Shown here in pieces: positions 8,185-62,968 of a DNA stretch of 64,000 nt. The notes under the pieces were generated by a model. It had not been told where the DNA came from, ran no database searches, and worked only from the letters and a program-made list of their open reading frames with translations. Made by a program: the position numbers and the translations under genes. Each line of letters starts with the position of its first letter. The stretch's first letter is position 1. The stretch is from NCBI GenBank assembly GCA_963402885.1, contig OY727103.1:16704085-16768084 (forward strand). The letters run 5' to 3'. Source of the DNA: Antedon bifida. Its lineage: Eukaryota; Echinodermata; Crinoidea; Comatulida; Antedonidae.

Positions 8185-11100
8185 TTACATGTGGTACGAC
8201 GTTAAGGCTATTCTATTACTGTCTTCGGGATGTCGTCTGGCAATGCCACATCGTAGAAGTAACTCCACGTACGGGGGCCAAAAATTGGATGTGACTTGTA
8301 CATAGGGGTCATGCTTGTCTTCACCTGTGCTTTTATTCATCAAAACCTGCAAAAACGATTTGATTTAATTTCTGTTTATAATTCAAAATAATATTATATA
8401 TATATTTGTTTTACAACACTTCCGCATGTTTTGCATTTAGCTAACAAACAAGAGCAAAGCAAAAACATTTTAATTCGTTTTTTTCCATCTAAAACAATCA
8501 TGAAAAATTGCACCTTTAGCAGGAGATAGGATAAACAAAACATCGGTAAACTCCCACTTTATCCAGAGATGAAGAAGTCTTTGGCTGTTAGCCAGACGGA
8601 ACTGTTTTCAGACACACAAGATTTGGTTTATAACTTGTGAACCCTATCTTAGGCCGTATTAATAATACAACCCATTTCAAGTTACCTCTAAAATTTCAAA
8701 AAGTTGAAAAAGCTCATCTTCGTCATCATCAACAGTTTTACCGGATAGATGCTGTAAATATAGATAAATATATATTAATATATGGAGTTGAATAGCTCAG
8801 TCTACACTATCAAACTAGTTTGACAAAAAAAGTGTGATGCACCCAAATATGGTAGTGATATGCTTAAATATGGTAGTGATATGACATCATCATGTCCATA
8901 TTTGGGCACATCACATGTTGTTGTCACATAAAGTCTGATAGTGTAGACAGAGCAAATCAACTGAAAGAAACTAAGTTCCGATACAGCGCTTATGTTCAAT
9001 TTTGAGCAATTGAAAGGAACCATGGTGCGAGTGCTTATGTCGAAATATGAAAGTAATTGTGAATAGCTAGCATGGTTACTATATACGGCACATGCAATGT
9101 GATTCGTAGTTGATTGCTTATGTGAACATTTCTACTGGTCGCGGTTACCAATACCACACACTATTTAAGTTTTCAGTTGCGTTTCTTTCAGTTTTGAAAA
9201 AGTGGTGTATAGTTAAATATACTTATAATTCAACATGCTATTTGTGTGTAAGTGACAGTGCTCAAAGATCAAAACCAGGCTAAACATTAACATGTACAAA
9301 CCCTTTTTCTTTTGCTATCTGGAATATTTGGCATAGGGAAATGTTGCTTAGCAAACTGGCCTAGATTTTTCATTAAATTCTTTTGTTTTTCAATCCCACG
9401 TTTTTTCATTTTTTCCAAGTTTTTTAATTCACTGTAAAAAAAAAGAGATAAATTAATGATCGATAAAATAGAATATCAATTAAAATATAGCAGGGTTCTT
9501 TTGGTGGTAAATTCACCAGTACAGTATATGACATGTTCAAATGTTGCTTACTTTAATTGAAATAAGGAGACAAAGAGTATTACTCGTATAGGCTGCCTCC
9601 TCTCATAGTTTTTATGTGTAAGTCATATGTTCGTTTAAAAGTGTTGGGCTTGAAACAATGTGATAAGGTAATGAAGTCTATGTGTTTATGATACGTATAT
9701 CAAAGAAAGAAGCTCTACTGAAGGTATTAAATCGAGATTTACACAACTTAAAAAGATGATATATAACCCAGTGGTTATTGTAATTTACTTGTGAAAAACC
9801 ATCAAAACACAAATTATTTATGGGTTATTTGCCATAATAAACATAAAACAGTCAACAAAGCAAAAAGGGACATTTGTACTGGAACACCTTTATGTCAGTC
9901 ACATAAACTGACAAAAAAACTTGGAAACCATCAGATTCCAAATGCTATTTCCTGGTATAATGATTTTAAGAACATTTTCATAACCTGATAAGCTCTGTGA
10001 TGTGCCCATATATTGACATATCACTACCATATTTGGGTATATCACTATCATATTTGGGCACATCACACTTTTGTTGTCAAACTAGTTTGATAGTGTTGAA
10101 AGAGCTTTAGTTGTGTACAAATTGTGAACAAAAAAACAGTATTCACCTATCGTGTGATTTTTCAGGAATTTTTTGTTCTACTTCAATTTTTTCTTCTATA
10201 GAAGCTTTTACCTCCTTGTGTTGTTTTAGGAGTCTTCTTTCCCTGAAAAGAGTAAATTTAAAATGAATATTTATTGTTTTGTTATCTACTGGAAAGCTCA
10301 GTCTACACTATCAAACTTTATGTGACAAAAAAAAAATGTGATGTGCACATATATGGACATGATGATGTCATATCACTACCATGTTGAAGCATATTTGGGC
10401 ACATCACACTTCTTTTGTCAAACTAGTTTAATAGTGTAGACAGAGCTAAATACATAAACAGGATAAGCATGTTTTTTTAATGAGGGTCCGAATGCAACCC
10501 CAAAACCAAGTCTCCAGTAATAGTCATCAATAAAATCTATATATAACGTTACCTTTCTGTCTCCTCTACAAGTTCTCTGCGCTGGGTCTTTACCACTGAC
10601 AGTGTCTGTTTCAACTGCTCAACACATGTTTGAAGATCGGACAAAAGAACTGCCTCAATTACCTCAGAATTTGTGCTAAGTACTAAAGATCAAGAGACAT
10701 TATATAATTTAAAATATTAAGCCTTGTCTATGCTATCAAACTTTATGTGACAAAACAATGTGATGTGCCCATATATGGAAATGATAATATCATATCACCA
10801 CCATAAAGCATATCACACTACTAGTTTCTGTGCATTGAATAGGGAGCCTTTGATTGGTGGCAAAAAGTGTGATGTGCCCAAATATGGTAGTGATGTGACA
10901 TCATCGTGTCCGATGGGCACATCACATATTTTTGCCACATAAAGTTTTCTAGTGTACACAGAGCTTTAATTCTTGTGTCTTCTGTGATAAGCCTGACAAT
11001 GGTAGTGATAAGCCCAAATATGGTACTGATCGTGTCCATAGTGGTAAAGAACCAACGCACATTTTTTTATAGTGTAGACAGAGCTTTAATTCTTGTGTCC

Positions 11101-13316
11101 TCTGTGACAAGCCTGACTATGGTAGCGATATGCCCAAATATGGTACTGATCGTGTCCATATATGGGCACATCACATTTTTTATAGTGTAGACAGAGCTTT
11201 AATTCTTGTGTCCTCTGTGACAAGCCTGACTATGGTAGCGATATGCCCAAATATGGTACTGATCGTGTCCATATATGGGCACATCACATTTTTTATAGTG
11301 TAGACAGAGCTTTAATTCTTGTGTCCTCTGTGACAAGCCTGACTATGGTAGTGATATGCCCAAATATGGTACTGATCGTGTCCATATATGGGCACATCAC
11401 ATTTTGTTATAGTGTAGACAGAGCTTTAATTCTTGTATCCTCTGTGACAAGCCTGACTATGGTAGTGATATACCCAAATATGGTACTGATCGTGTCCATA
11501 TATGGGCACATCACATTTTTTATAGTGTAGACAGAGCTTTAATTCTTGTGTCCTCTGTGAAAAGCCTGACTATGGTAGTGATATACCCAAATATGGTACT
11601 GATCGTGTCCATATATGGGCACATCACATTTTTTATAGTGTAGACTGTCCTGTCCTCTATGACAAGCCTGAATATGTGCAAATATCAAGATGAATGATAA
11701 ATACAGACTAAAACATTTACATATAATCAAAAATTATTACTCACAGCTTGGTGATGTTTTAATATTGGCGTCAATTTCAGCTTGTAATCTTTTTTCTTTA
11801 GCTTCAGATATCTGTGACATCTACCAGGAAACAATAGTTTATTTAGCTTATACAAGATAAAGTATTATTATAAAAATAATGAAAGTTTATTATCAGTTGA
11901 ATAATGTACAGTATATTAAAACAATACAGGTAATAATAGTGTAACTTACTGTACATTCCGGGTTATTTATTTTTCCAATCTTCTTTTCTTGATTTAACTT
12001 TGCTTGTAGCTGTAGAAAAATAAAAGAATAAATTTACATTAAAACATTTACAATTAATAGTAATATTGTAGTAATTACCGTGTATCCTCGGTTATAATCC
12101 CACCCCTTACTTTATGTCTGACTTCACAAACAAGCATATTCTCGGATATAGTCCCAATATTGACTTTTGGTCTGGATGTAAGCTTCTCTTTAGCCAGTTC
12201 TGATGTGTTTTTACAAGAAATGCTTACTCAATCATTTTTTTCTGAACCAAGGTTTTCCCAGGTATTTTTTTTTTTTTATTTATTTTTTATTCAGAACATT
12301 TATTTCTCTTCTCTTTTCTATTAACAGTGTTTGTAAAAAAACAATTTTAAATAAGAGAGGCGAACCCCAGAAAGTGTAAACTTGTGGTGGGCTGCCAAAA
12401 AATAAAAACAAAATTATTATTTTAATTCAATTATACAGTAGTCCCACCCCCATATTACTACCATATTTGGGTACATCACACTTTTCTTGTCAAACTAGTT
12501 TGATAGTGTAGACAGGGTTTTACATTCATACCAAAAATGTTGTTTTAAAAAAACAAAATCTGTCTGTTGATAATGTTTATTTTTGTCATAACTCAGTCTG
12601 TAGCCAAATTATAAATTCAAAAATAAAAGGCTGGAATATTGTATTGTAGTCTGAGATCGGTTGTTATAAAAGAAATAATATCCCTGTAAGGAATTATATC
12701 TTTTGATTCCTTGAAGGGATAGTCTTGTATGCACCTTGTTCAGTTTTAACCATTGTTCTTCAATTTCTATTTTTAACTGGTTTTCTGCTTCTTCTAATTC
12801 TGTTGACGGACTCTGTTGATCTGGGTCAAATGATGTCATGAGTGATCGCTGTGCACCAGCAGTTACATCATCCTGAAAAAATAAATACGAGTTCTCTGGT
12901 GGTAAACAAGTCGTTTGAATTGAATAAGGAAATCCTTGCATACTTTCAAATTGTGCATAATATTACATCATAATTAAACAGAACAGCACCAAAAAAATGT
13001 TTAAAATCCAAGCGACAGGGAGGGCTACATAAATTAATATGAATCTGAGTATCAAAAGGTCATGGTCTCTATTTATATTACTTGTAAGTAAGTCTAGAAT
13101 AGTAGGCCAGCTAGGCCCGGACACAGTAGTACTTACTACTAGCCTACACACTGAGCCGGCCGCAGTGGTAGTACGTGTGTCAACTTGACATTTTGATCGA
13201 CAGGCTAGGCTTATAGGCTAGACTCTACCCAGTTCCAGTAACCAGCCAGAACGTCCTTACACTTACGGTAGGAGTAATCGTTCTTTATAGAATAATAATA
13301 ATGTTTATCTTACCAT
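8185..13316 (-). CDS. CENPK: CENPK, centromere protein K (CCAN kinetochore subunit)
   Basis: CENP-K is part of the CENP-H/I/K/M group of the constitutive centromere network and helps recruit outer kinetochore proteins. Nine coding exons on the minus strand: 13316-13314 (the ATG alone, donor GTAAGA), 12872-12735, 12009-11950, 11820-11745, 10682-10553, 10242-10147, 9431-9302, 8751-8686 and 8346-8185. All junctions keep one frame, giving 286 residues (human 269). The N-terminus MDDVTAGAQ is formed by splicing the lone ATG to exon 2. The middle is coiled coil (KLQAKLNQEK; ERRLLKQHKEVKASIEEKIE). The C-terminus carries the family signature HDPYV, then FWPPYVELLLRCGIARRHPE and DSNRI. The donor at 9302 (AGG/GTTTGT) is weak but fits the frame. 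The introns are unusually rich in M1 copies. Confidence 0.94.
8794..8953. mobile_element. M1 palindromic element, representative copy
   Basis: M1 is a short inverted-repeat element of about 110-200 bp. Its ends are AGCTCTGTCTACACTATCAA and the reverse complement. Inside is a second inverted pair, GTGATGTGCCCAAATATGG against CCATATATGGGCACATCAC, around ATGACATCATCATGTC. No coding capacity is seen, so it is a MITE-like non-autonomous element. This copy lies in the last CENPK introns and has an extra internal CAAATATGGTAGTGATATG unit. Confidence 0.85.
9991..10106. mobile_element. M1 palindromic element, one end shortened
   Basis: The right end, with TCAAACTAGTTTGATAGTGT, is intact. The left end is cut to AGCTCTG joined directly to the GTGATGTGCCC core. 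It lies in a CENPK intron, 41 bp from exon 10147-10242. Confidence 0.75.
10295..10447. mobile_element. M1 palindromic element, full copy
   Basis: Both ends and both core arms are present. It lies in the CENPK intron between exons 10147-10242 and 10553-10682. Confidence 0.85.
10721..10967. mobile_element. M1 palindromic element, rearranged copy feeding a tandem array
   Basis: The left end is diverged (GCCTTGTCTATGCTATCAAAC). The right end, AGTGTACACAGAGCTTTAAT, is the first unit boundary of the 113-bp array that follows, so this copy is the probable founder. Confidence 0.7.
10951..11690 (+). repeat. 113-bp tandem array derived from an M1 end
   Basis: The string AGTGTAGACAGAGCTTTAAT recurs at 11071, 11184, 11297, 11411, 11524 and (truncated) 11637, spacings of 113-114 bp, with a diverged first unit at 10951. 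Each unit joins the right end of M1 to a new stretch (TTCTTGTGTCCTCTGTGACA) and the CAAATATGG/CCATATATGG core. The units are nearly identical, which indicates recent amplification. The repeats generate spurious ORFs on both strands. The array fills most of one CENPK intron. Confidence 0.9.
12442..12520. mobile_element. M1 half copy
   Basis: Only the right half is left (CCATATTTGGGTACATCACA to AGTGTAGACAGGG), in a CENPK intron. Confidence 0.7.
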
Positions 13317-14219: not shown

Positions 14220-17200
14220 TTAATCATAATAATCTAAGCTACTACTACTGTCTGTCTTTTCTTCTTCGTCAATCTCTTCTTCTTCTTCTTCCTCCTCACA
14301 TTCAACCCATTCGTACGATGATTGTGGCATCGATTCAGAATTTGCAAAGCTCACGCTACCCTCGCTAAAAGAAAGTCCGGATTCGAGTGTGTCGTTACCG
14401 GGTTCGGGAGTAAAATATCTTTTACATTTTTTAGTAGGTGGTTGTGTAGTGGTTTCATCATCCAGACTTGTAGAATATGAAGGTGGTGAGCAATCAGCAT
14501 CGTCATCATCGCAACAATCATTCTATGTAAATATCCCGGATGAAAAAAATAAATATCGGAAAGAAAATTAATATTATGGACAATGATGATTGGCTGAGTG
14601 CGGGTGAAAGCATCGTATTCTATCGTATGCCACAGCGGCACTATCAGCACTGCCGCAGTGCGGTGAAAGCATCGTATTCTATCGTATGCCACAGCGGCAC
14701 TATCATCACTGTCGCAGTGCGGTGAAAGCATCGTATTCTATCGTATGCCACAGCGGCACTATCAGCACTGCCGCAGTGCGGGTGAAAGCATCGTATTCTA
14801 TCGTATGCGCTGCCACAGCGGCACTATCGGCACTGCCGCAGTGCGGGTGAAAGCATCGTATTCTATCGTATGCCACAGCGGCACTATCGGCACTATCGGC
14901 ACTGCCGCAATGCGGGTAAGCATCGTATTCTATAGTATGCCACTGCGGCACTATCGGCACTGCCGCAATGCGGGTGATCGTTTTCTATCGTATGCCACAG
15001 CGGCACTATCGGCACTGCCGCAGTGCGGGTGAAAGCATCGTATTCTATCGTATGCCACAGAGGCACTATCGGCACTGCCGCAGTGCGGGTGAAAGCATCG
15101 TATTCTATCGTATGCCACAGCGGCACTATCGGCACTGCCGCAGTGCGGGTGAAAGCATCGTATTCTATCGTATGCCACAGCGGCACTATCGGCACTGCCG
15201 CAATGCGGGTGAAAGCATCGTATTCTATCGTATGCCACAGCGGCACTATCGGCACTGCCGCAGTGCGGGTGAAAGCATCGTATTCTATCGTATGCCACAG
15301 AGGCACTATCGGCACTGCCGCAGTGCGGTAAGAACTACAGTTGTGTTTAACTTACCCCAACACAACCATCTCCGCTACTCTCTTCATTTACCAATTCTTC
15401 CTTATCTGATTCCTCTAGATTAAAGATGATAATTTAAACATATCGATAAAACAATAAAATACAAACATATTACTTTGATTTTGAAATAAATAATAATATT
15501 GTGTAGCTTAAGTTATAAACACCGAGAGAGTAAAAACAAATCACCCCTACAATAATATTAAACCGAAATACTAAATATCTTTATAGATTTAGATAGCAGA
15601 GTGGGCGCCAGGATTATCAGACATATAAGGTGCATGCCCGACGTGGAGTCCTTTTTGTGTGAATTTTTAAAAATAATTAGGCCTATATGATAATATTAAT
15701 TATTATAATGCTAATTTTTTGTGAGAGCAGGAAAACTGTAGAGCTAGCAAAACAGAGTTGGGGGAGTAGAGTCTTCACATCTGAAGTTGGCTCCAAATAC
15801 GAAGAAGAAGAAACTAAAACTTCAACGTATCTTGGATATGTTCAATTGCCGGGGCTCAATATACATTTTCAGAATTTTAATCTCGTCTCGTAATATTGTT
15901 GTTATAAAATGCGTAATATTGTACCTATTATACAATCAGCCTCTGATTCGCATTTATGGTACTCAATGGCCAAACCATCACATTTGAAACTTGTTCCATC
16001 TTCCGGGATAGGGCATTGTCGTGTGCGTCTTTGGCTACTATACTTGACGCAATCCGAGCAATGGGACCATTTTGACCAGTCAGTCCAACCTCTGATCTCT
16101 GAAGGAGAAAATAAAAAAGATTCGTCAATCATGAATTATTTCGTCATAACTTCTTAAGTGATCCTCGTTGTTTAAGATAATATTTCTGAACAAGGATTAT
16201 TTTAAGCTTTGTTGCTATCTAGTACGCAATGCAAGGGCGTTTAATGCGTGGTTCCCACTGGCGACGCAACACAAGGACGTAACGCAACGCAAGTGAATTG
16301 ACCAATCACAAGCGATGGCTTATTCGCTTTTGATTGCTAACTGTCTATAACTTCGCTTGTAATTGGTTAAAACGCTTGCGTTGCGTTTACGTCCTTGCGT
16401 TACGTTCTAGTGGGAACCAAGCTTTAGTGATTGGTCAACTTACTTGCGTTGCTCTACGTTCTTTGCGTTGCGTCCTATATAGCCAAGTTATTCAGAGACA
16501 GTTATCGCTAAACTTGGTGGTTAGTAGAAACCAAATTGCCCGGGTATATAAAAGTAAGTAAGCCATAGTATGTGTTATTAAATTCGGAGAAAACATGACA
16601 GTGTAAAAAAAAAACTGCGTCTCACTAATACATGGTGTAAGTGCCAAATCCAAGCTAGGTTACTGTGCTTGTGTTCACTGAAGGGTGTCAAGTGAACAGG
16701 TGACCAACCATATGGGTTATGCTAATGAGGGCATAGCTTGCTTGGGCTGTGGCTGGCAGTTGGATAGTTAGGCTTGTTGGGTAAGGACCTAGCAAGCACA
16801 AAAGGCTTACTTAGAAGCCTATAGAAGTGGTAGATGTACCAAGGCTTACTTAGAAGCCTATAGAAGTGGTAGATGTACCAAGGCTTACTTAGAAGCCTAT
16901 AGAAGTGGTAGATGTACCAAGGCTTACTTAGAAGCCTAAGCTGGCCTAGCTATAGAAGTGGTAGATGTACCAAGGCTTACTTAGAAGCCTAAAGCTGTAG
17001 TACGGTAGTAATTGATATAGTGTATAGCTATAGCTGCACATGTTATCCAGGCATATCTTTGGTAAGCAATTGAGACTTATCTTATTATTATTATAGTTGT
17101 AATTATTTTGAACCAAGAATTATTTATATTGTACTGTTTTATCTATGACTTATTTAGATACTTATGTAAGGTCTATTATTATTGTATAGAATTATTTATG

Positions 17201-20200
17201 TTGTACTGTATGATAGATACCGTATATATTATTTGTAATCATTATTTATTTGTTATAGTAAATCGGATCAAGTTGGAGAACAATTAAATTCCGCATTTGC
17301 AAGAAACTTGTTTGTGCAGTTATAAAATTTACAAAGCTATATCCACGATGGCTGAAGCTGCTTCAGAGAAATCTGTTAGAGTAAAACGTAAGACCGAGAA
17401 GGGTGCAGAGTATGAAAAGGAACGAAAGCTGAAAGGAATCAAAGAGTTGTGGCGTCGTGTTAAATTTGTGTCAGAAGCGTTGAAAGCTTCTTTGAATAAG
17501 GAAGTTACAAGAGAAAATCTGATTAAGGTGCATCAAGATTGGTTAATGGTGTATGGTGAATTTATGTTCCTTCATGATGAAATTTGTGGCTTGCTGAACG
17601 AGGAAGAGAAAATAATGTATAATGAATGGTTTGAAGACAAAGATGTGTGGTTGGCAAACTTAAAAGCTAAAGTAGAGGATTGGTTTGCGGTGCTTGAGGT
17701 AGAGCAGTCTGCGGCGGTAAATTCTCATCGCTCCGCAAGCAGGAAATCAACTAACAGTTCAAAATCTTCTAAGCGATCACTAAGTGCTTTTGTGATGCAA
17801 GAAGAGCAAAAACATGCAGAGTTGCTAGCCAGGCAGAGGAGTCTCAAAGAAAATCAGAGAATTCAACAGGAAGAGTTCAAACTCAAACAGTTAAAAGAAG
17901 AAAACGCTTTAAAAGAAGAGATAGACGTCGCCGAAGCAAGATTGAATGTTGCAAGGGATTTCGCAAGCGGAAGTGGTTCTGGTAGCCACAAAAGTACGTC
18001 ATCAATGGAAGGGTTTCTAGATAGTGCATACCGACGAAATGTGTTATCCTTTGCTCCAGCGGATCCTGCTACTATTCCTGTATTAGATTTAGACCCATTG
18101 GATCCTGTTGTAGTCCCTGTTGTTCCTGGTGATGTAACACAAGCCTTTGCTCCAGCCGATCATGTTACAATTCCTGTGCTAACGTCAGTTGCTCCTGTGG
18201 TAGTTCCTGCTGTTCCCGTAAACATACCGGCAACCCAAAACTTTGCTCAAGCAGATCCTGCTCCTACTACAATTCCTAACTTAGCTTCGAACACAGTGAC
18301 TCCTGTAGTAGTTCCTATTACGCAAACTCATCTGTTTCAGCAAAACCGGCAGGGTTGTCAGGATTCTTTTTCTTCTAATAGAAAAGTTGGTTCTACTGAT
18401 ATGAACGAGGTGATAAGGACTATGCGGAAGCCACAAATGGAAATTAAGAAATTTGCAGGTGAATCCTTGGAATTCAAACGTTTTATAAGACAATTTAAGT
18501 CTAGAGTGGAACAGTTTTGTTCAGCAGATGAGAAATCCAATTGCTTCCGGAGAAGATGGAAACAAGCTCAATATTTGGCTGATCGTTTCTGGGAGAGATG
18601 GAAAAGTGAATATCTTCCGCTGTTACAAAGAAGACAAAAGTGGTTATCTCCAAAACAAGGATGGGTTTGTTCGGCAAGTAAAGGTAAAGACACATGCAAG
18701 TATCCTGACAAGGCCTGTGAGTAAACTATGTTTTCTGTTGGAGAATGATGATCCGGAAAAGTAAATCCGAGGCGTTGTCTATATTATTCTGAATTGAACA
18801 AAACAAAAGAAGGAAACACAGAAAACTTAAGAAACTTTAAATGGACTTTATATTTAACTTTTTTTTTGTCGCTACTTATATACATTGTTGTTTAACATTA
18901 TAGTCAATAAGTTGATGGATAATTTGTGTTATAGGCCTGGATTTTACACTTTCATTGTATTTGTATGTAGAATTGTGCAATGCGCAATTGTGGGTGGGTA
19001 TGTAAGTGCCAAATCCAAGCTAGGTTACTGTGCTTGTGTTCACTGAAGGGTGTCAAGTGAACAGGTGACCAACCATATGGGTTATGCTAATGAGGGCATA
19101 GCTTGCTTGGGCTGTGGCTGGCAGTTGGATAGTTAGGCTTGTTGGGTAAGGACCTAGCAAGCACAAAAGGCTTACTTAGAAGCCTATAGAAGTGGTAGAT
19201 GTACCAAGGCTTACTTAGAAGCCTATAGAAGTGGTAGATGTACCAAGGCTTACTTAGAAGCCTATAGAAGTGGTAGATGTACCAAGGCTTACTTAGAAGC
19301 CTAAGCTGGCCTAGCTATAGAAGTGGTAGATGTACCAAGGCTTACTTAGAAGCCTAAAGCTGTAGTACGGTAGTAATTGATATAGTGTATAGCTATAGCT
19401 GCACATGTTATCCAGGCATATCTTTGGTAAGCAATTGAGACTTATCTTATTATTATTATAGTTGTAATTATTTTGAACCAAGAATTATTTATATTGTACT
19501 GTTTTATCTATGACTTATTTAGATACTTATGTAAGGTCTATTATTATTGTATAGAATTATTTATGTTGTACTGTATGATAGATACCGTATATATTATTTG
19601 TAATCATTATTTATTTGTTATAGTAAATCGGATCAAGTTGGAGAACAATTAAATTCCGCATTTGCAAGAAACTTGTTTGTGCAGTTATACATGGGTCCCT
19701 TGTACATGTCCGCTTCTCCGCACTCTCTCCATTACAGGATAAACCGTTGTATTTTGGTTTTGGATTGTTACACGATCTTTTACGTACACTTTTACCCGTA
19801 CCACATGTCTTACTGCAACCAGTCCATGGCGACCACTCTCCCCAACCACCATCAACTGTCAATAACAAATGATATTATTTATTAGCTTTTTCACGTTATT
19901 TTCTTAATCGGAGTTAAATCGCGGTCTATCGGAGTTAGGCCCGAGTTCAAACGCAACATTTTAACCACTCGATAAACCCCCAATAGTAAGTGCTTGTCAA
20001 TGTCACATTCTGAAACAATCGGAGTTAGGTCTAGTTTCACCGAATGTACCTCAGAAAAATATCGGAGTTATATCAGAGGTATCGGAGTTATAACGACAAG
20101 GAGAGTTAACGTATGTGAACGGATCAGCTTAAGCGTGCATAGAAGAGTTACCTGTACTGTACAACATTGGAATTGCTGACAAAGATTTGTCCAAAGCCAC

Positions 20201-21156
20201 GCCTCCCTTTCAAACACCACAATAAATCAGCCTAAAGTACGATATTGAACACTTACTCGGACACGGTCCAAAGCCACAGTTACGCGTTGATCTCGATTCA
20301 CCATAGCAAGATTCACCACCGTATTGTGCTGGTGGATTGTCACAGACTCTATCTCGGCTTCGAAAGGCGTCCGTTCCACAGGTTGCTGAGCAGGCGGAAT
20401 ACGGCTGCCAATCTCCCCAATTACCATTAACTGAAAAGAACAAAACACAATACATAAAATGAGACAAACAAAATTACAGTTGTATTCTTCCCGGCAACAC
20501 TATACAGATCGAATCTGTGTTTGTTTAATGTTAGTGTTTTAACCGGTCTAATCCGAAGCGGTCGCGCGGCCCAATCGAAGCCGAAGGAGAGCCATGATGC
20601 AAAATAAAGTAAACATTTTATAGTAAATACCAGGACAGTTTTGTACTTCCTCACAATCTTCTTGTTCGATTTCTAAACATGTCGTTGTTTCATTGTATAC
20701 CTGCACATTGTCACAACTGTTGCGTGATCGTGAACGAGTACCAACACTGCACGTCTTAGAGCATGTTGACCATTCAGACCACACATCCAGCTCACCAATA
20801 ACTTGAATAAAAGAAACAAAAATGCATAATTGTTGCCAAACTACGTTTAGAAAAATCTTACAAATTAAAATAACTGTTATAATTGGTACCCAATTATCGA
20901 TTTTTTTTATAATACTGTATCAAGACAAGGTTTTTCCTTCACAAATTAGTGTTACTTTTAGGCCTAAGCCGTAGCAAACAAATACAAAATTAAAACTATA
21001 GGCCTATATAAGAGTAATCTTATGGAAAACTAATTAGACCTAAAATGTATAATATTTCTCTAAGAACAAAAATATCTTACCTGTCAAAAAGAGTGAAACT
21101 CCTATAAAATACATGAATATATGGACAACATTGCTTCTACTTTTTCCAACTGCCAT
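14220..21156 (-). CDS. Properdin-like paralogue A: secreted TSR protein with acidic Cys tail, split by an LTR element
   Basis: Exons on the minus strand: 21156-21081 (start MAVGKSRSN plus a hydrophobic signal peptide), 20801-20631, 20430-20257, 19855-19690 continued by 16635-16626, 16098-15925, 15414-15356, 14522-14220. All TSR exons are symmetric, phase 1. Without the inserted element the frame is open for 375 residues: signal 1-25, four thrombospondin type 1 repeats at about 26-82, 83-140, 141-197 and 198-255, then a tail. TSR landmarks are [23 protein letters not shown] and [12 protein letters not shown] (C-mannosylation and O-fucose type motifs). The last TSR is atypical ([10 protein letters not shown]). 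The tail reads GDGCVG-NDCCDD, then [18 protein letters not shown] and a poly-Glu run. Compared with gene B it lacks the TB domain and first TSR. The third TSR exon is interrupted by the LTR element, so this allele is probably non-functional or mis-spliced. The substrate and partners are unknown. Confidence 0.85.
14597..15335 (+). repeat. 60-bp minisatellite in gene A intron
   Basis: About twelve copies of a 60-bp unit beginning GTGAAAGCATCGTATTCTAT and ending GGCACTGCCGCAGTGCGG; from 15001 on the period is exactly 60. Each unit contains a small palindrome (CCGCACTGCGG-like). The array ends about 20 bp from the donor side of exon 15356-15414. The ORFs it produces on both strands are artefacts of the repeat. 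Confidence 0.93.
16246..16425. mobile_element. M2 inverted-repeat element
   Basis: M2 is a MITE-like element of about 160-180 bp. Its ends are AAGCTTGGTTCCCACTAG followed by GACGCAACGCAAGGACGTAA, and the reverse complement; inside are CCAATCACAAGCGATGG and a matching arm. No coding capacity is seen. This copy lies in a gene A intron, about 150 bp from exon 15925-16098. A partial arm follows to about 16480. Confidence 0.85.
16631..16635 (+). repeat. Target-site duplication, left copy
   Basis: CATGG lies immediately before the 5' LTR and is repeated at 19690-19694 immediately after the 3' LTR. Because the flanking ATA also matches the LTR end, a length of 5 to 8 bp is possible; 5 bp is usual for BEL/Pao. 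Confidence 0.9.
16636..19689 (+). mobile_element. Non-autonomous BEL/Pao-type LTR retrotransposon
   Basis: Two direct LTRs of 689 bp each (16636-17324 and 19001-19689) flank a 1.7-kb interior. By eye the LTRs look identical, so the insertion is recent. Each LTR holds five copies of a 39-bp unit starting AGGCTTACTTAGAAGCC. The interior has a gag-like ORF that runs straight into a remnant of the pol C-terminus; protease, reverse transcriptase, RNase H and most of integrase are missing. It must have been mobilised in trans by a complete relative. Orientation is opposite to the host gene. Confidence 0.92.
17348..18724 (+). CDS. Gag-like protein fused to a pol C-terminal remnant (BEL/Pao)
   Basis: 459 codons from the first ATG of the interior. 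Residues 1 to about 120 form a charged helical region. About 150-220 is a Lys/Glu-rich coiled coil, and about 230-350 a Pro/Val-rich linker with repeats of the type VVPVVP. Then comes [20 protein letters not shown], the signature of the DUF1759 gag domain of BEL/Pao elements. Directly afterwards [20 protein letters not shown] matches the DUF5641 end of BEL/Pao pol. The junction at about 18537 marks a large internal deletion. A second lesion near 18650 shifts the frame: the usual pol ending ([19 protein letters not shown]) continues in another frame to 18764. The element therefore cannot encode its own replication enzymes. Confidence 0.82.
19690..19694 (+). repeat. Target-site duplication, right copy
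   Basis: This second CATGG lies inside the TSR exon of gene A; together with 16631-16635 it brackets the element. Confidence 0.9.
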
Positions 21157-22607: not shown

Positions 22608-25600
22608 CTATGAACTGCTGCTAAAGGATCCTTGTCCGCCACCACCTGCATTGCCACCGCCTCCATTACCGCCAGTGTCTTTTCCAGAGGACACATATGA
22701 AGACGACAAGCTGTTCTCATCCCCACCTCCATTATCGGGAGCGTCAGTAGCAATAGCAACGGGGCTTGCGTTAGAATCACTGGAACTTACGTCATAATCA
22801 CTTATACTGCTACTCCCGCCCCCTGCTGGAGTTGGTTTCTTATCAGATGCATCATCACTATAATCGTAATAATCACTAAAGGCGCAATTATTACTGTTAC
22901 TATCTCTGCAATCGTCTGCGGGGGTTGGTGTAACATCTTCCGGACAATCAACCCATTCGAATGACGCGGCATTGCTATCACTGCCTTGGCTAACACTCAC
23001 ACTTATACTGTCACCAAGAGAATCGCTAATACTGTTGTCTGGCGCCGGTGTGAAAAATCGTTTACATTTATCGGGTGGTGGCGGTTCTGACGATGATACG
23101 ATATTGCTGGATGAAAACGAATTAGACGAAGATGAACCATCAGAGCAACCATCTGGGTCGTCACAACAATCGTCCTACATAAACAATATTACGTATCAAA
23201 AAATAAACATTGCGTAAACTATAAACAAACATTACGTAAACAATCAACAACATTACGCATTCAAAAATAAACATTGCGTAAACCATCAACAACATTACGC
23301 AAAAATATCATGGAATAAGATACTTACCCCAACACAGCCATCGCCGCTTCCACTTCCTTCTCCATCTGATACGCCTAATATAAAAATAAATATATGATAT
23401 ACATTTTAATAATGGCATAAAATAAATAATAATAATAATAATAATTTATTTGGAAGCTATCGCACTATTGAAACAGTGGCACACGTCTTAAGCAAAGGTG
23501 CGACATTCAGAGTATTGCAACAAGTAAAAGAAAAGTGATTTAACCAGGCCTATTTAGAAGAAAACTTCAACGAAAGTGTACAAAATATAAAAAGTAATAC
23601 AGGATTTGATAGCAGAAAGCTAGGCCTACTACAATTCCATTGTTGTTTGGTGAAGCCTTTACAAAATCGATAAAATGCAACTTCAATATTTCTAGGAAGA
23701 CCAAGTAGGCCTACAAAAAACCAAGAACATATTGATTTTTTATTTGCCAATTTCTCGAATAATAATATTATGGAGAGCATGATATGAGAAAAGGAAATGC
23801 CTAGGCCTACTACCTTCAGTGGATTTAGAATTACATATAGGGTTGTTATTGTCCAATTCAGTCATTCGATATTTTTTTTAAATTTAATTAAAAAGCACAG
23901 TATCTTAAAGATGTATTGTCCCCTTGAAAAATAATTTTTACTTATTTTTTATTTTGTTGAATATGCTATTTTAATGTCACCTAGGCCTAATAGTTATTCA
24001 CTTTGACCAAAAATTGGATCGAAAAAACTGTATTTACCTGAAAAATATGTAATTTAAAGCAAAAAATAGTCAAATTGGCTGCCAGCCAATATATTTTTTA
24101 GTTGAATTTAACTGTTTATTTTGTTGTTGTTACACATTACTTTTTTTCGTTTTCTTTTCTACGGAAGTGATTAACTTTATTAAAACTACAAAATAATCTA
24201 TTCAAAGTCTGATTGAATTAATCTTCATTGTTCATGTTTTTGGAGGACAATATATCTTTAAGTATCTCTGTAAAATAATTTTCCAGAAATTGCATAAACA
24301 AATTTACTTTTCTTGCAGTTATCGACAGACGTGCACCTATATATATCAAGTGATGAACCGTCGCATTTGATAATTTTACTATCAGCTGTGACAGGGCAGT
24401 TACGCGTGCGTCTCTGTTGACCATACGTTTCACAGTTCGAGCAATCTGACCAGTCTGACCATTCTGTCCAATCAACGGGTTCTAAATAGAGAATAAAGAT
24501 ACTTATTTGTGTACAATATGGTTGACGCAATACAGATCATATAAAGCTTGGTTCCCACTAGCGACGCAACGCAAGGATGTAACGCAACGTAAGTGATTTG
24601 ACCAATCACAAGCGATGGATTTTTCGAACAGTGGCTTGTCATTGGTCAATTCACTTGCGTTGCGCGTACGTCCTTGCGTTGCGTCGCTAGTGTGGGAACC
24701 AAGCTCGATGAAAACTTGGGATGAGATGAAGCAAACTATCATGAACACACTTTAACCGAACTTTAAGAATATTTCTCATGTAACAACAGTTGTAACTTGT
24801 GACGAACACATGCCACTGTATCATGGAACATTCCTAATATACTGAACACATTAAGATACAGTACAGCCTAATGGGCAGGTCATATAGCAAAAAGAGAGAA
24901 CAACAAGTGAACCACAGGTGAACCGAATTGCAGCCGAGAATCGGCAAAAGAAGAAGGGAAACACAAAAACGCAGATGGAGGGACATCTTATACAGGAACA
25001 ACTTGGGCTTCTGTAGGACAGCACAGAAAGGAATGACAGTCAGATGAGATTTGATTTATGTATTCAACCAATAATTCCATGATTACTCACTGATACATTC
25101 ACCAAGGTTACAAGTCCTTCTACCCGTATCTTCTCCGTTGCATGGTTTACCGTTGTGTTGTGGTCTTGGGCTGTTACAGCTTCGCTTACGAACACTTCTA
25201 CCATCTCCACAAGTCTTACTGCAGCCTGTCCATGGTGACCATGACGACCAATCACCATCAACTGTGTCAAAGGACAATATTGATAAAGACCATTATTTAC
25301 TAGGCGCTACAGAATAATGAAGGATGTTACTGACCCGAAGCAGATACAAGTTGCAGGGTCGTACTACCAGGATTTTTTGAACGGGGAGCGCTAACATCTA
25401 ATTAAAAGTAAAACATAGATTTTAGCCAAACGATATCCTTGCATGGGTCCGCCCTTAGTTATCACCACTTCAAACCTTCAAACTAGGCCTCCTACAATGA
25501 CTATCAACCTACGTGTTTATTGTATTGTTTGCTGTATATCGATAGCTAAACACTTACTCGGACACGGTCCAAATCCACAGTTGTGCGTTGATCTGGATTC

Positions 25601-28293
25601 ACCTGAACAAGGACTACCTCCGTATTGTGGTGGTGGATTATCACAAGCTCTATCTCTGGTTCGAAAAGCGTCGGGTCCACAGGTTGCTGAGCAGGCGGAA
25701 TACGGCTGCCAATTCCCCCAAATACCATTAACTTGAAAGAAGACAAAACAGACGTTTAGTTTAAGAAAATCTGCCCATGTCATTTGAGGTCGCCCCGAGT
25801 CGGGGAAAACTATCACTGAGTCGGGGAAAACTATCACTGAGTCGGGGAAAACTATCACTGAGTCGGGGAAAACTATCACTGAGTCGGGGAAAACTATCAC
25901 TGAGTCGGGGAAAACTATCACTGAGTCGGGGAAAACTATCACTGAGTCGGGGAAAACTATCACTGAGTCGGGGAAAACTATCACTGAGTCGGGGAAAACT
26001 ATCACTGAGTCGGGGAAAACTATCACTGGGTTGTGGATAATAAATGAAAATATACTATGAACTGGTAGGCCTAAACAAGAATTTTGTTTTTGTCTGAAGA
26101 TAACGTTAGTCTCATGTCCGAAAAACGACGTGTGAAAATATGGTTTATCTGAAACTACAGTAGAACTCTATTCAAGGGACAGCCAGGGACAGCCGTGGAA
26201 ACACACATGGAGATGTTTTAACACTACGACGAACTTGAGAAGGTGTTCACTAAAGCTTGATTCCCACTAGACGCAACACAATGACGTAACTCGCGGCAAC
26301 GTATGGGATTTGACCAATCACAAGCGATGGATTATTCTAACTGTCGCTTGTCATTGGTCAACTCACGCGGCGTTGCGTTTACGCCCTTGCGTTGTGTCCT
26401 AGTGAGAACCAAGCTTTAATAGGGTTCTATATTATGTTAAGTACATACTTGGGCAGTTTTCAGTTTCTACGCAGTCTTCTTGCTCAACGGAGTCGCCCCC
26501 AATTTGCAAACACGTCCTTCCGTTGTATAGTGGTGCCGGAGAGTCACAAATTCTGGACCGTGAACGAATACCGACGCTACATGTTGTAGAACATGCCGAC
26601 CATTCAACCCAATTACCCCATTCTCCATCAACTTGAAAAAAATGAAAGAAAACAAAGTTGCAGTTAAAAATTGCCAATTCAATTAGGCTCTGTCCACACT
26701 ATCAAACTGTTTTGACAAAAAAGTTTGATGTGCTCAAATATGATAGTGATATGGTCAAGTATCATCATGTCCATATGGGCAGATCACATTTTGTTGTCAA
26801 ATAAAGTTTGATAGTGTAGACTGGGCTATGAACCTTTTATACTGTCAGATCTGTTTCCATTATTCTTTTAGACAAAGTAGATAATCATATCGTACATGGA
26901 TCGTCAGTAATAGGGGCTAACCTAAAAAATGAAAGATTGCCTGAACTTAACCGTCCTATAACAGGACCTTATGTAACGGGTGCTACATCTATACCTAATA
27001 TATTTATATTAAATAACGAATCTTACTCGGGCAGTGTTGATGTTCGACACACTCCCTCTGCTCAGTTGTTGATCCATCACAAATACCTTTTTCACAAGTA
27101 CGCGTGCGTGTATCTATTCCGACATCGCACGTGCGACTGCAACCGGACCAAGCGCCCCACTCAGACCAGACTGCAAAACGATTGAGAAAATGTATGGAAA
27201 ACATTATTAATATAGTTAATTAAACATATGCCAAAATAATTAGACTTTAACACGACACTAGCACGAGTTGGTAATACGCGCAACGCAAAATATATATTTA
27301 GAAATTGGTAATGAATGTTGGAATGACCTCTGGGATGACCCAATTTGAAAAAGCTATTCCATTTGTGTACCTGGTGTTATGTCTTCTTCGGAAAGTGCAC
27401 TTTCACAAATTTCACAGTATTTGCCTTTGACGTTTGTGCTAAACCCGACGGAATCTTGCACGTTGCTACAGCAGTCTTCAAGACTCCCGCCAGGAAGGTC
27501 GTTCAATCTGGTTCTACATCTGAATTCGTAATCTCCTGTCGTCTTTTTCTTATAGGTTTTAAAACAGTAGCTAGAAACTGAGATATTACAGAAAAATGTA
27601 TTGGAAATTAGAGTTTTTCTTAACTCTAGGCCTACTAATCTATTATTCTGGATCTGTTCAGCTTGGTTCTCATTAGGAAACAACGCAAGAGCGTAAAGCA
27701 CATTTAATGCAAGTAATTTGACCAATCACAAACAATGGATTATCAGAACTGTCGCTTGTGATTGGTCAACTCACTTAAGTTTTGCATTACGTCATTGCGT
27801 TAAGCTTGGTTCCCAAACGTCACTAGGACGCACGCAAGGATGTAAGCACAACGCAACGTAATTTAACCAATCACAAGCAAGTCGAATCCACATGATTTTG
27901 TGTACATGCAATGTTGACGGGGTTGTTTTGTAAAAGGGTCTTAACTACAGTAAAACAAGCACTATTACGTACTACTGTATGTTCTTACCAAGATTCATGC
28001 AATTAATTAATTGAATAAGAAAACACATTTTAATATCATTTATTTTCGGTCATAACTTCATACATATCTATAGCCTACTTCTAACGGTTTAAAAAACTAA
28101 AACTGTTTAAACCGATAGGTCTTAGTCAGCGCACTTTGTTATGATTGTTCTTGACTAGTTCAAGTTTCAGGTTAACGTTAATAATATAGGCCTACCGTAT
28201 TATAAGAAAACAGAAAATGGTCTTACCTGTCGGAAGTAGTAAACTCAAAGTAATCATAAATATAAAGGCAATTCTATTCCTTCCAGCCGCCAT
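22608..28293 (-). CDS. Properdin-like paralogue B: signal, TB domain, five TSRs, acidic Cys tail
   Basis: Exons on the minus strand: 28293-28227, 27577-27371, 27170-27027, 26631-26449, 25731-25558, 25261-25091, 24481-24308, 23374-23328, 23174-22608. The frame is open for 577 residues. Residues 1-22 are the signal peptide (MAAGRNRIAF...). Residues 23-91 form a TB domain with six cysteines in the properdin order: YCFKTY, FRCRTR, SLEDCCSN, KYCEICE. Five TSRs follow at about 92-139 (WSEWGAWSGCSRTC), 140-200, 201-258, 259-315 ([12 protein letters not shown]) and 316-373 (atypical, WSDWSDCSNC). Then comes a linker SDGEGSGSGDGCVG and a 188-residue tail DDCCDDPDGC, DKCKRFFTPAP, SFEWVDC, ending Ser/Gly-rich. 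No transmembrane segment is seen. TB directly followed by TSRs is known to me only from properdin, the stabiliser of the alternative-pathway C3 convertase; vertebrate properdin has six TSRs and no such tail. A complement role is inferred. Confidence 0.88.
23904..24262. mobile_element. M3 inverted-repeat element
   Basis: Ends CTTAAAGATGTATTGTCCCC and GGAGGACAATATATCTTTAA form terminal inverted repeats of about 20 bp. The interior is AT-rich and non-coding, with AGTCAAATTGGCTGCCAGCC. A second copy is at 29992-30346. It lies in a gene B intron and ends about 45 bp from exon 24308-24481. Confidence 0.82.
24545..24705. mobile_element. M2 element, well-preserved copy
   Basis: Both ends are nearly intact (GCTTGGTTCCCACTAGCGAC / GTCGCTAGTGTGGGAACCAA). 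It lies in a gene B intron, 64 bp from exon 24308-24481. Confidence 0.88.
24860..25047 (+). mobile_element. LINE reverse-transcriptase 3' remnant
   Basis: Translated pieces WAGHIAKRENN and, in another frame after a stop, RRWRDILYRNNLG match the typical C-terminus of LINE reverse transcriptases (WxGHIxR ... RRWxDDL). Frame breaks show decay. It sits in a gene B intron in the orientation opposite to the gene. Confidence 0.65.
25795..26031 (+). repeat. 21-bp minisatellite
   Basis: Eleven to twelve almost identical copies of GAGTCGGGGAAAACTATCAC(T), about 65 bp upstream of the acceptor of TSR exon 25558-25731. The open frames on both strands come from the 21-bp (multiple of 3) period. Confidence 0.95.
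26253..26416. mobile_element. M2 element
   Basis: Ends AAGCTTGATTCCCACTAG and CTAGTGAGAACCAAGCTTTA; it lies 32 bp from the donor of exon 26449-26631. Confidence 0.82.
26686..26828. mobile_element. M1 element
   Basis: Both ends are present (GGCTCTGTCCACACTATCAA / TTGATAGTGTAGACTGGGCT); the core is slightly diverged. It lies 55 bp upstream (gene sense) of TSR exon 26449-26631. Confidence 0.82.
27660..27880. mobile_element. M2 element followed by a partial second copy
   Basis: One copy runs from GCTTGGTTCTCATTAGG to GCGTTAAGC; a second, partial one starts at TTAAGCTTGGTTCCCAAACG. Both lie in the gene B intron upstream of the TB exon. Confidence 0.75.
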
Positions 28294-29904
28294 TCTTTTT
28301 CGTTGATTGTTGGAACGTAAGTTCCAGTGTTCTTTCCAAGTGAAGATTCGATACTACAAGTGCTCAAGGAAACTTCATAACAAAGTGCGGAACGGAATAG
28401 GAAAGGGATTGTCGGAACCGGAAAGATAGAATTACTCTCTCTCTGTTTCAATATCAGAAATTAAGCACTGCCCAAGGTGAATAAATACATGACTTCCCTC
28501 AATGTTATAACATTTGTGGGCAATGATTCCACATAAAACAACCATGTATCCTACATGGAGGTTGCATATTTTAAGGGTCACCTAATTCGACGAGGTGACG
28601 GTTCAGATTTACATTTGTGGCTGGTTCCAACATCATCATCTCATTATCCGAAAATAAGGAGATTGATACTGCTTGGTTCCCACACACTAGAGAAACGCAA
28701 CACAAAGACGTAAGCGTGGTTCCCACTAGAACGCAACGCAGTGACGTATCGAGGCAATGTGCTGTTAGTATTGCCGCGTAATCACAAGTGGGAACCGACG
28801 ACGCAACAGTGCTGCAAACAAATGATTGGAAGGGCATTTTCTTATGTTGCGTTGCTAGTGGAAACCAAGCGCAAGTGATTCACAAATGATACATTATTCA
28901 AACTGTCGCTTATTATTTATCAACTCGCTTGCGTTGCGTCTACGTCCTTGCGTTGCGTCTCTGGGAACAAAGCCTAAGGTAGAGACTAAAGCCCAAGAAA
29001 CATGTAAAAACACGTTTTCAGACGACACTGCTACTATGCCATATGGCACCGACCGGCGGTTTGTTAGCTGGGTATAAATAATAGGCCCATTGAAGCTAAG
29101 GAAATATCTATGTTAACTACATCCCTTTAAGAACAAACACTTATCTAATGAGGAATTTAAATGGGAAACGGAAAGTAGACGTCCTTCTTTGAAACATTCG
29201 GGGTTTGATCGCTAATAACATTCTGTGTCATCATCGTTATATAAATCTTCATATTTTGTTTTATTAATTTCGGTAAAACAGAAACAAGGAAGAAGATTAC
29301 AAAGATAATAATATGTTTTAACACTACGGCCACCTCAGAGGACGCACCTATACAGGGGACACCCAAGAGGACACTCCTATTCGCGGGACTCACCTATTCA
29401 GGTGACACCCCTATTCAGGGGCAACATCTAATAAAAGTACACTTTCTCATAAAACGAATTACCGGAAATTGTACGGCCAACCCCAATTAAGTGGCAGCCT
29501 CCCCCCACTCCAAATTGTCCACCTTAACTGTATACGTGGTTATCGTGGTAAAAATTCTCTACACTCTGCACAATGAACCAATCGATGAATACTGGCGCAA
29601 AATAAACATAAAATATTACAACCTTACTGAACTTACAAATAAGACACATCATAACATGTGTTCACACTGAGCTATTGAGTCTATAATTCAAACTATTTAT
29701 AAGCATCAACATCATCTGCAGTTTATAGTTGGTTAATTCTATCCACAGGAATTTGCAAATATTTTTTAACTCAACTAAATTTAAATACCACATGCCTTGA
29801 ATTAGCAAAAATCATGTTTATAATATTTATAATCAAAAATGAATAAAAAAAAAATTACAGATTAAAATAATTTTTATAAATTAAAATTTCCTGCAAGAAT
29901 AATA
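28294..29904. other. Upstream region of gene B and downstream flank of CCDC66
   Basis: Contains rearranged M2 arms (about 28672-28975) and short GGGGACACCCCTATTCAGGGG-like strings at 29330-29480, a dispersed family also seen near 41400, 45800, 49930 and 62250. I found no exon-like region. The gene B promoter should be within a few hundred bases of 28293. Confidence 0.5.
28672..28975. mobile_element. M2 arms, rearranged or nested
   Basis: Several copies of GGTTCCCAC...ACGCAACGCA in both orientations within 300 bp; it looks like one element inserted in another. Confidence 0.65.
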
Positions 29905-34586: not shown

Positions 34587-37500
34587 TCAGTGTACACATC
34601 TGGCTCATGTGCATATATATACACTGGACCCTCTGGAAGAAAAGTCTTAGACTGAAGAGGCTGCCCAGTACAAGAATAAATAATAAAGATTGAACCCTGG
34701 ATTGCGGGATTGGACGAGCTTAAAGATCTGACTTACTATATGTTCTAAATGTTTACTACGAGCTTTATCCTGTCTCTCCTTTTCAGCTGGATCTGTTAAA
34801 GTCCACTGGCCTCGTTGATGTCTGTAAAAATACGAAAACTGTAAACATCAACCGCATGCTCAAAAAAATGTGCCTATATATGGACATGATGATGTCATAT
34901 CACAACTGTATTTAAGCATATCATTACCATATTTGGGCACATCACACTTTTTTCAAACTAGTTTGATAGTGTAGACAGAGCTTTGGGCACTATACAACAG
35001 TACCATTATTATCATTATTTTATACAGACAGTACTTACCCTCTTGGTGTTATAATAGTGTTCTGCGTATCTCCTCTTGGACTTATAATACTGTTAATGGG
35101 AGCTGTTGTCCCAGCAGGGTCACTTTGAGATGTCATGGATCTGGTAAGAGTTGTTTCTTCCTGTCCTGTCGCTGTGTCATCCTTCGTTACCGTATTCTGG
35201 AATGACACGCTACTTTTCACGACAGGCACTTGTTTTGCCCAGTAACTTTCGTCCGTGTTGACGCTTTCACGCAGTTTTTTCTGTTGCGCTTGTCTCGCTT
35301 TATCCTCTTGTCTTTGCTTTTCTATTAAAAAATATAAAATAATAATACAATTTGTTCAAAACATCAATATTGTGCCCAAATATGATAGTGATATGCTTAA
35401 ATATGGTAGTGATATGCCCAAATATGATAGTGGTATGCTCAAATATGGTAGTGATATGCCCAAATATGATAGTGGTATGCTCAAATATGGTAGTGATATG
35501 ACATCATCGTGTCGTGGGCACATCCCATTTGATTGTCACATAAAGTTTGATAGTGTAGACAAACCATTTGTGTTATTCTTGGTAAGCATCATTTAACACA
35601 TTGCAACATGGAATTGTGGGTAAGCTGTCTAACAATATCGCAACATACCTAATTCTTGAAGCCACGCCTTCTTTTCTTTCTGTTTTATTGCAGCATTCTC
35701 ATCAGAATAATTCTACACAAAAAATAAAAATATTTGAAAAGGTACAAATGTTATTTCTGCAGTGAAAGGAAAGTATAAAACGAGCGATTATATACTGTAA
35801 TCTAATTGTTAAAGCCTAAACTAGCAAACTTTTGTTTGAAAACTGTTTTTATTAATACTGTATAGTTATTAAAAAATACTGTAGTTATGTCAGGAAGTAA
35901 GTGACAGTTTGTCATGGTAAACTTCTTCTTGAAAATTTTCTTTGGAGTTCAGTTCTTTAAATCTACAGTCTCAGTTACTGTACCTTAGTTTATTAAGGTT
36001 TAGGTTTTTACTTCTGTACCCTGGCAAACATTGGACAATTTTCTTGCCAAACTCTGAGTTTGCGAACGAAAGTTTGCTAGTATAGACTATGCTTTGTTCA
36101 GTATAATTAATAAAATCTAAACCTACCCCAAAAGAAAATGAGCTCCTCATAGCTGCGGGGGTGTTAGCCTGATTGTACGATTGATTCACTGTAGTTGAGG
36201 AAGGTGCTATTTCAGGTTTACTGTTCTGGTTACTTGACTTTTCAGGAACATCATTCTAAATATAATCAAAATGTACAAGATTAGTACTAATACTATTTAT
36301 ACGCATAATTCCATCCATAGAGGAGGAATAAACAAAGAGTTAGGTTTAGGGCAAAAGAAAATTGTTTGCGTAGGAAATCAAAATCAATGTGAAGGAGAAT
36401 TTGTCAACATAAGAAATGTTCTCTATGGGACAAATTACTCTATTACTACTTCACATAAAAGTAAAGCGTGAAGGTAAAGATTTTAACTTGGCATTGAGAG
36501 GAACCATTGACAGTGTGGCCAAAAAAAATACATTGAAATATAGAGGGTGCTATTATGAAAAATCTATACTATGTTTTCAAAGACAACCTACCTTGACCTG
36601 TGGTATGGTTGTGTTGTCCACTTTCTTTTGTCCTCTACCTCCACTGTCACTTAGACCCCATGGATTCCACTGACCAGCACTGTCCCCACTCAGACGTAGT
36701 TTCTTCATTTTATCCTTCTCTTTCTGCTTCTCTGCAAGTTGTTTGTCTACAAAATATATAATTTTTTTTACAAATTAAACCTAAATATTTAAATTTAGTG
36801 TTTCATTTAAGATGGTGTACTTTAGGCCACTCTTAATTGATTATCATTTTAATGGTATTCCTCTGACTGTGTTTATGTTCTATTGAACATAGTATCTCTA
36901 GTTTCATTTGTATCTATTGATAAATAAATAAAACAGAAAGAAAATAGACACCTAATTCTTCTTTCCATTCTCTTCTTCTTCTGGCTGCGTCATCTTTATC
37001 ATTAAAACCACTGATACCTATTGAACCCCCGATGTCACCAAGGTTAAACCGTGGAGATAATACATTTTTAACATTCTCAGTTCTATGTTCAACCTCCTCT
37101 GTTTTATTATCTGTCGCGTTGCCCTCCCCGGCATGGTTAACGTGCGAAACTTCATGCGATTCTTCGTTGTTCTGATTTGATACAATGTCGTTGGCTACAT
37201 TTTCTGTACTTGGTGTATCATCTATCAAATCCGGTATATTTCTATTTTCGTCGGTTTGTAAGTTTGTTTCTATTTCGTCTTGTTTATTTGATAAGTCTTC
37301 AATTTTAATATCACCATTTTCTACAACAGAGAAACAAAGTTTAATATTGTAAGTATACATAATTAAAATGATACTCAATAACTATAATATACATCCAAAA
37401 CACATTTTGTTTTCATAATCTGTAAAAAAAATTGATTAAAAATTTTCAGCCACACAGGAAGACGAACAGATATTTACTGTACACATTATATATTATTAAG

Positions 37501-62018: not shown

Positions 62019-62172
62019 AGCTCTGTCTACACTGTCAAAGCTAATTTGACAAAAAGAGTGTGATGTGCCCAAATATGGTAATGATATGCTCAAATACGGT
62101 AGTGATATGACATCATGTCCATATATGGGCTCATCGCATTTTTGTCACAAAAAGTTTAATGTAGACAGAGCG
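62019..62172. mobile_element. M1 element
   Basis: Left end AGCTCTGTCTACACTGTCAA, right end AATGTAGACAGAGCGTT; near full length. Confidence 0.85.
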
Positions 62173-62840: not shown

Positions 62841-62968
62841 AGCTCTGTCTACACTATCAAACTTTGATATACCTATGTATGGACATGATGATGTCATATC
62901 ACTAACATATTTGGGCATATCACTAACATATTTGGGCATATCACACTTTTTTTGTAGACAGAATTTCA
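62841..62968. mobile_element. M1 element, right arm shortened
   Basis: Left end AGCTCTGTCTACACTATCAA is perfect; the unit ACTAACATATTTGGGCATATC is doubled on the right arm. Confidence 0.82.

Follow-up and report, generated by a model that had tools for sequence, protein, structure and literature searches.

Probable recent disruption of a properdin-like gene of the crinoid Antedon bifida by a defective LTR retrotransposon

When a retrotransposon lies inside a coding exon, was the gene alive until the insertion, and what can the gene still make afterward? This question is raised by a 64,000-nucleotide stretch of the genome of the crinoid Antedon bifida (assembly GCA_963402885.1, contig OY727103.1, positions 16,704,085 to 16,768,084 of the forward strand; hereafter the window, in which all positions are counted), where a long terminal repeat (LTR) element interrupts an exon, T4, that encodes a thrombospondin type 1 repeat (TSR). 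The exon belongs to gene A, which is adjoined on the same (minus) strand by its paralogue, gene B. Both genes are properdin-like and lie in tandem; gene A is the shorter one, and we consider it very likely that a non-autonomous LTR retrotransposon recently disrupted it. Under the mechanism that we propose, a BEL/Pao-derived element, mobilised in trans, would have integrated recently and in antisense orientation into T4 of a gene previously under purifying selection; gene A transcripts would now read into the antisense LTR, with a stop after 25 codons, or skip T4, and gene B, left untouched, may buffer the loss of gene A. Events of this kind are well known, and this case is cleanly resolved: here one properdin-like gene, next to an intact-looking sister, carries a candidate loss-of-function change that consists of a single lesion with sharp borders, and the locus bears both on redundancy between the two genes and on exon skipping versus truncation. 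Among the literature matches listed, in which BEL/Pao elements were poorly covered, titles and the openings of abstracts held no description of this insertion.

The insertion site in exon T4 of gene A

On the minus strand, exon T4 (identified by Pfam and by alignment to gene B) runs for 166 nucleotides from 19855 to 19690, meets the 3054-bp element (16636-19689, delimited by its LTRs and the duplication; plus strand, antisense to gene A) and continues on the other side with its last 5 bases (16630-16626), which are followed by the donor GTGAGA. The sequence CATGG flanks the element on both sides, the left copy of the target-site duplication lying at 16631-16635 and the right copy at 19690-19694; the insertion point is 5 bases upstream of the T4 donor, or 10 bases with the duplication included. 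Across the element the exon amounts to 166 + 10 - 5 = 171 nucleotides, which is the length and phase of gene B exon 25261-25091, and the joined exon ends in an A/GTGAG donor and encodes a TSR with six cysteines. An earlier note on this DNA had proposed that a recent LTR element with identical LTRs sits inside a coding TSR exon and that the exon resumes across it in the length, phase, final cysteine codon and donor of its paralogue. Our analysis agrees at each of these points: T4 is split, CATGG stands at both edges, the LTRs match at 689 of 689 positions and the reconstituted exon corresponds to that of gene B in every respect named. Further, Pfam TSP_1 is matched with an E value of 5.4e-14 by the 54 codons that precede the insertion and with 1.6e-14 by the gene B exon.

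The length of the duplication depends on how the boundary is read, being 5 bp for CATGG, 6 bp for ACATGG and 3 bp for TGG, where the last reading assumes that the LTR ends in CA, at the cost of one mismatch between the LTRs, and shifts the LTR boundary by two bases; all boundary readings lead to the same empty site. At 5 bp, CATGG falls within the 4-6 bp expected of LTR retrotransposons, a range given as typical of most of them in an excerpt of PMC12440569. An intact second T4 exon, the possibility against which the earlier note had set its reading, was sought in the window with a TSR pattern (regular expression) and with tblastn, and neither search revealed one. The pattern scan returned 10 segments, namely the nine TSR exons of genes A and B and a minus-strand segment at 59735-59953; tblastn with TSR1 of gene B returned the same nine exons at E values up to 0.009 and, near 59790, just a six-residue match (E 12).

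Structure of the LTR element

The element has a 5' LTR of 689 bp at 16636-17324, with TG..TA ends and tandem 39-bp units, and a 3' LTR of 689 bp at 19001-19689 with the same sequence (both plus strand), and the interior between them is 1676 nt long. Identity at all 689 positions sets a 95% upper bound of 0.43% on LTR divergence. A 21-mer of the LTR, with up to 3 mismatches allowed, had five matches in each LTR and none in the rest of the window (maximum after shuffling 0, n = 100), and no further copy of the LTR was detected in the window.

A plus-strand open reading frame (ORF) spans 17297-18724, and from its first ATG (17348-18724) we label it, by eye, gag-like. Its end carries a first fragment of DUF5641 (profile positions 1-36, approximately 18551-18658, E 2.8e-9), and a second fragment (profile positions 66-94, E 1.3e-5) follows in another frame at 18651-18737. 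In BEL/Pao elements, DUF5641 lies at the C-terminus of pol. Most of pol is thus missing here, and what is left of its last domain is internally deleted and frame-shifted. No Pfam match to a protease, reverse transcriptase, RNase H or integrase was obtained in the ORF pieces 17348-18457, 18458-18724, 18404-18538 and 18528-18761. With regard to the tRNA primer-binding site, inspected by eye, no TGG follows directly after the 5' LTR. A 201-amino acid gag-like piece compared with viral contigs gave six pattern matches and no relatives by tblastn. With BEL/Pao elements (Belpaoviridae) the element shares the TG start of its LTR, the 5-bp target duplication and the DUF5641 remnants; it differs from them in the apparent TA end, the 1676-nt interior, the gag-like part unmatched in Pfam and the lack of a match to the four pol domains in the ORF pieces listed above. 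We therefore file it as a probable BEL/Pao derivative rather than as a member, given that neither a reverse transcriptase nor an integrase was matched and that the interior is so short. This family label is provisional. The element is a defective, internally deleted LTR retrotransposon that would be unable to move alone and would have been mobilised in trans. The insertion suggests recent mobility of such a deleted element, and with it an active helper that is, or was, in the genome.

Gene A before the insertion

Our model of gene A has seven minus-strand exons with consistent phases. Exon 1 (21081-21156) was modelled from sequence signals and comprises a start codon, a signal-peptide-like stretch and the donor CAG/GTAAGA. 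The TSR exons T2 (20631-20801), T3 (20257-20430), the broken T4 and T5 (15925-16098), supported by Pfam and by alignment to gene B, are followed by a small exon E (15356-15414, phase 1 to phase 0) and by a last exon with an acidic tail and a stop codon (14220-14522), both again modelled from sequence signals. Joined across the empty site, these exons give 375 codons (1128 nt) with no stop or frameshift inside, and each TSR has six cysteines; exons T2-T5 are all of phase 1-1 and have lengths divisible by 3. Candidate start exons had to combine a start codon with a hydrophobic stretch and a donor of phase 1. At a permissive donor threshold (above 3 bits), a single distinct site turned up upstream of gene A and another upstream of gene B. 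A control scan of both whole strands at a stricter threshold (above 9 bits) yielded four distinct sites, among them the start exons of genes A and B; these two are alike and have the donor CAG/GTAAGA in common. The earlier claim that gene A was disrupted is strengthened by these results, as the gene possesses a start exon and a last exon of its own and shows no further visible lesion. We also considered gene A as the 3' part of gene B and rejected this: gene B terminates in a stop exon that belongs to it, and gene A begins with a separate start exon. A tandem repeat of about 60 bp occupies 14597-15388, mainly in the gene A intron between the small and the last exon.

Over 225 aligned TSR codons, genes A and B differ at a proportion of 0.57 of the synonymous and 0.23 of the non-synonymous sites, and the ratio dN/dS over the TSRs is 0.25 (bootstrap 0.15-0.37); the last exon was excluded from this pool, its proportion of synonymous differences being 0.885 (beyond correction) and its dN 0.549. 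If gene A had drifted neutrally since the duplication, and if both branches are taken as equal, the ratio would be expected to be at least 0.5, and the observed value therefore indicates that gene A was formerly under purifying selection. When neutral drift of the gene A frame was simulated (1000 runs each), the probability that no stop appears was 0.257 at 2%, 0.04 at 5% and 0.002 at 10% substitution; because it falls so fast, gene A cannot have been a drifting pseudogene for long before the insertion. Taken with the LTR divergence of less than 0.43%, the open frame and the dN/dS ratio make the insertion plausibly the first lesion in gene A, and a recent one. If pairwise diversity in the host is at least 1%, one would usually expect so young an insertion to be polymorphic still; a presence/absence polymorphism, as the earlier note had suggested, is thus plausible, and the allele may still be segregating in the species. 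We note, as an observation on its own, that the T3 exons of the two genes (25731-25558 in gene B, 20430-20257 in gene A) are much more alike than the others, with a dS of 0.40 compared with 1.4-2.5 for T2, T4 and T5 (Fisher test on rounded counts, p = 2.5e-4); the two genes may have exchanged sequence here by local gene conversion.

Predicted consequences and alternative explanations

The full-length gene A protein is likely to be lost from this haplotype, through a truncated protein of 221 amino acids or through in-frame skipping of T4. In the first case translation would read into the antisense LTR for 25 codons after the last cysteine and then reach TAA, as the earlier note had predicted, and the product would keep T2, T3 and all six cysteines of T4 and lose T5 and the tail. 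The stop overlaps an AATAAA (19615-19610) about 75 nt inside the antisense LTR; we do not regard this signal as remarkable, because the minus strand of the window has 92 copies of AATAAA (1.44 per kb), so that one would be met by chance within 80 nt in about one case out of ten. Nor is the regenerated cysteine codon remarkable, as it needs just one of two bases. In the second case, T4 being phase-neutral (171 nt, phase 1-1), skipping would keep the frame and leave a single open frame of 318 codons with one terminal stop. Chimeric splicing is possible as well, because the antisense element contains many donor- and acceptor-like sites. The earlier description of gene A as knocked out is supported as to disruption, but a complete knock-out is no more than a possibility, since the frame of the skipped form would remain open and the read-through form would retain three TSRs, none of them short of a cysteine.

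One branch of the explanation we prefer holds that T4 and the element are skipped together, that a three-TSR protein is made and that the insertion is nearly harmless; we regard this as possible, though on balance doubtful. The phases and lengths of T2-T5 and the open 318-codon frame are consistent with it, and the 166-nt part of T4 has lost its adjacent donor. Reln is a gene for an extracellular protein. In the mouse Reln allele rl-Alb2, an antisense intracisternal A-particle (IAP) in exon 36 is accompanied by exon skipping and reduced mRNA, according to an excerpt of PMC6466679 that records exon skipping for antisense exonic IAPs and describes mutagenic endogenous retrovirus insertions in mouse as mostly intronic. 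As in gene A, an exon of a gene for an extracellular protein there holds an LTR element in antisense orientation, but element family and host are different, and exon skipping, reported there, is a prediction here. Against skipping as the main outcome, the AATAAA and the many splice-like sites inside the antisense LTR element would let truncation and chimeric splicing compete with it. Far less probable, in our judgment, is that the inserted allele is something other than a plain null, in which the LTR completes the last cysteine codon, the stop overlaps AATAAA, a stable truncated secreted protein (T2-T4 with a 25-residue LTR tail) is made and the population keeps a complement-type regulator polymorphic for presence and absence.

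It could also be argued that gene A was already a non-functional fragment and that the element landed in dead DNA, since no significant counterpart of the N-terminal exon or TSR1 of gene B was detected upstream of gene A by tblastn, and the donors of three of its four TSR exons are weak (T2 3.0, T4 3.1 and T5 2.2 bits, with T3 at 7.4, compared with 3.7-7.4 for the five of gene B; scores from an approximate matrix). However, a start exon resembling that of gene B, a last exon with a stop, a clean 1128-nt model, six cysteines in each TSR and a dN/dS of 0.25 instead of at least 0.5 all speak against a dead fragment, and we consider this explanation unlikely. An assembly artefact, be it a misplaced element or an LTR sequence copied over its partner, appears to us the most improbable of all: collapsed or polished repeats can also yield perfect LTR identity, but a target duplication and an exact continuation of the exon at both edges are unexpected from a misjoin, and the window contains no N. 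Several points nevertheless weigh against a recent disruption of a working gene A by a BEL/Pao-derived element. The exon models of both genes were built from sequence signals alone; dS is near saturation in three of the four TSR exons; and, given the low scores of T2, T4 and T5, splicing of gene A may already have been weak when the element arrived. The identity of the LTRs could instead reflect gene conversion or copying in the assembly. As for the element, the LTR copies stop matching after ..TA and not after the canonical ..CA, the gag-like pieces, including 17348-18457, have no Pfam match, and the BEL/Pao label depends on one C-terminal domain.

Gene B and its similarity to properdin

Gene B (22608-28293, minus strand) is the tandem paralogue of gene A and was modelled as an open frame of 577 amino acids, with a single stop at its end. 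It comprises a start exon (28293-28227), an N-terminal exon (27577-27371), five TSR exons (27170-27027, 26631-26449, 25731-25558, 25261-25091 and 24481-24308), a small exon (23374-23328) and a last exon with the stop (23174-22608); an alternative acceptor of the N-terminal exon at 27570 breaks the frame. When 373 amino acids of gene B (the N-terminal part and the TSRs, tail excluded) were compared with the PDB, the best match was properdin (1w0r, E 2.9e-53), in one alignment that spans the N-terminal exon to TSR4 (residues 43-311 of the query, 16-281 of the chain), with thrombospondin-1 next (E 2.5e-35). With TSRs T2-T4 alone as the query, thrombospondin-1 came first (3.7e-47) and properdin second (2.7e-43), and properdin ranked first with the longer query only. 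Taken by itself, the N-terminal exon found no PDB entry at an E-value limit of 1 or of 10, nor any meaningful match in Pfam; with TSR1 it gives 11.0 bits.

Vertebrate properdin has six TSRs; properdin forms oligomers and stabilises the C3 convertase. Gene B, which aligns with this protein (complement factor P) over the region given above, has five TSRs and an acidic tail, and gene A has four TSRs and is without the N-terminal exon and TSR1; the properdin-type layout of an N-terminal domain followed by a TSR array is thus present in gene B and not in gene A. Because the ranking depends on the query and the N-terminal exon alone is unmatched, we name the genes properdin-like and not properdin orthologues, and the TSR counts of five and four are a further reason not to file them as properdin. 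Among echinoderms, a sea star has been reported to have a contig that resembles properdin, according to an excerpt of PMC4503460. An array of twelve overlapping matches, with a step of 21 bp, lies at 25734-26082, in the gene B intron at the edge of the T3 exon.

Other features of the window

Two dispersed repeat families were noted. Members of the first, which carry TGTGCCCATATATGG-like motifs and are perhaps miniature inverted-repeat transposable elements, occur in both orientations at places that include 8794-8957, 10014-10109, 12451-12524, 34860-34953, 35345-35513, 43936-44071, 47420-47555, 62038-62116 and 62841-62987. The second family, rich in TTGCGTTGCG, was found at 16242-16474, 24525-24705, 26251-26418, 27661-27808, 28880-28973 and 61471-61553, and four of these six places fall within introns of our gene A and gene B models. 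A minus-strand ORF at 473-1126 has no Pfam match and presumably resembles part of thymine-DNA glycosylase. Finally, tandem arrays with units of 19 bp and 23 bp occupy 48119-48631 and 57911-58386, respectively.

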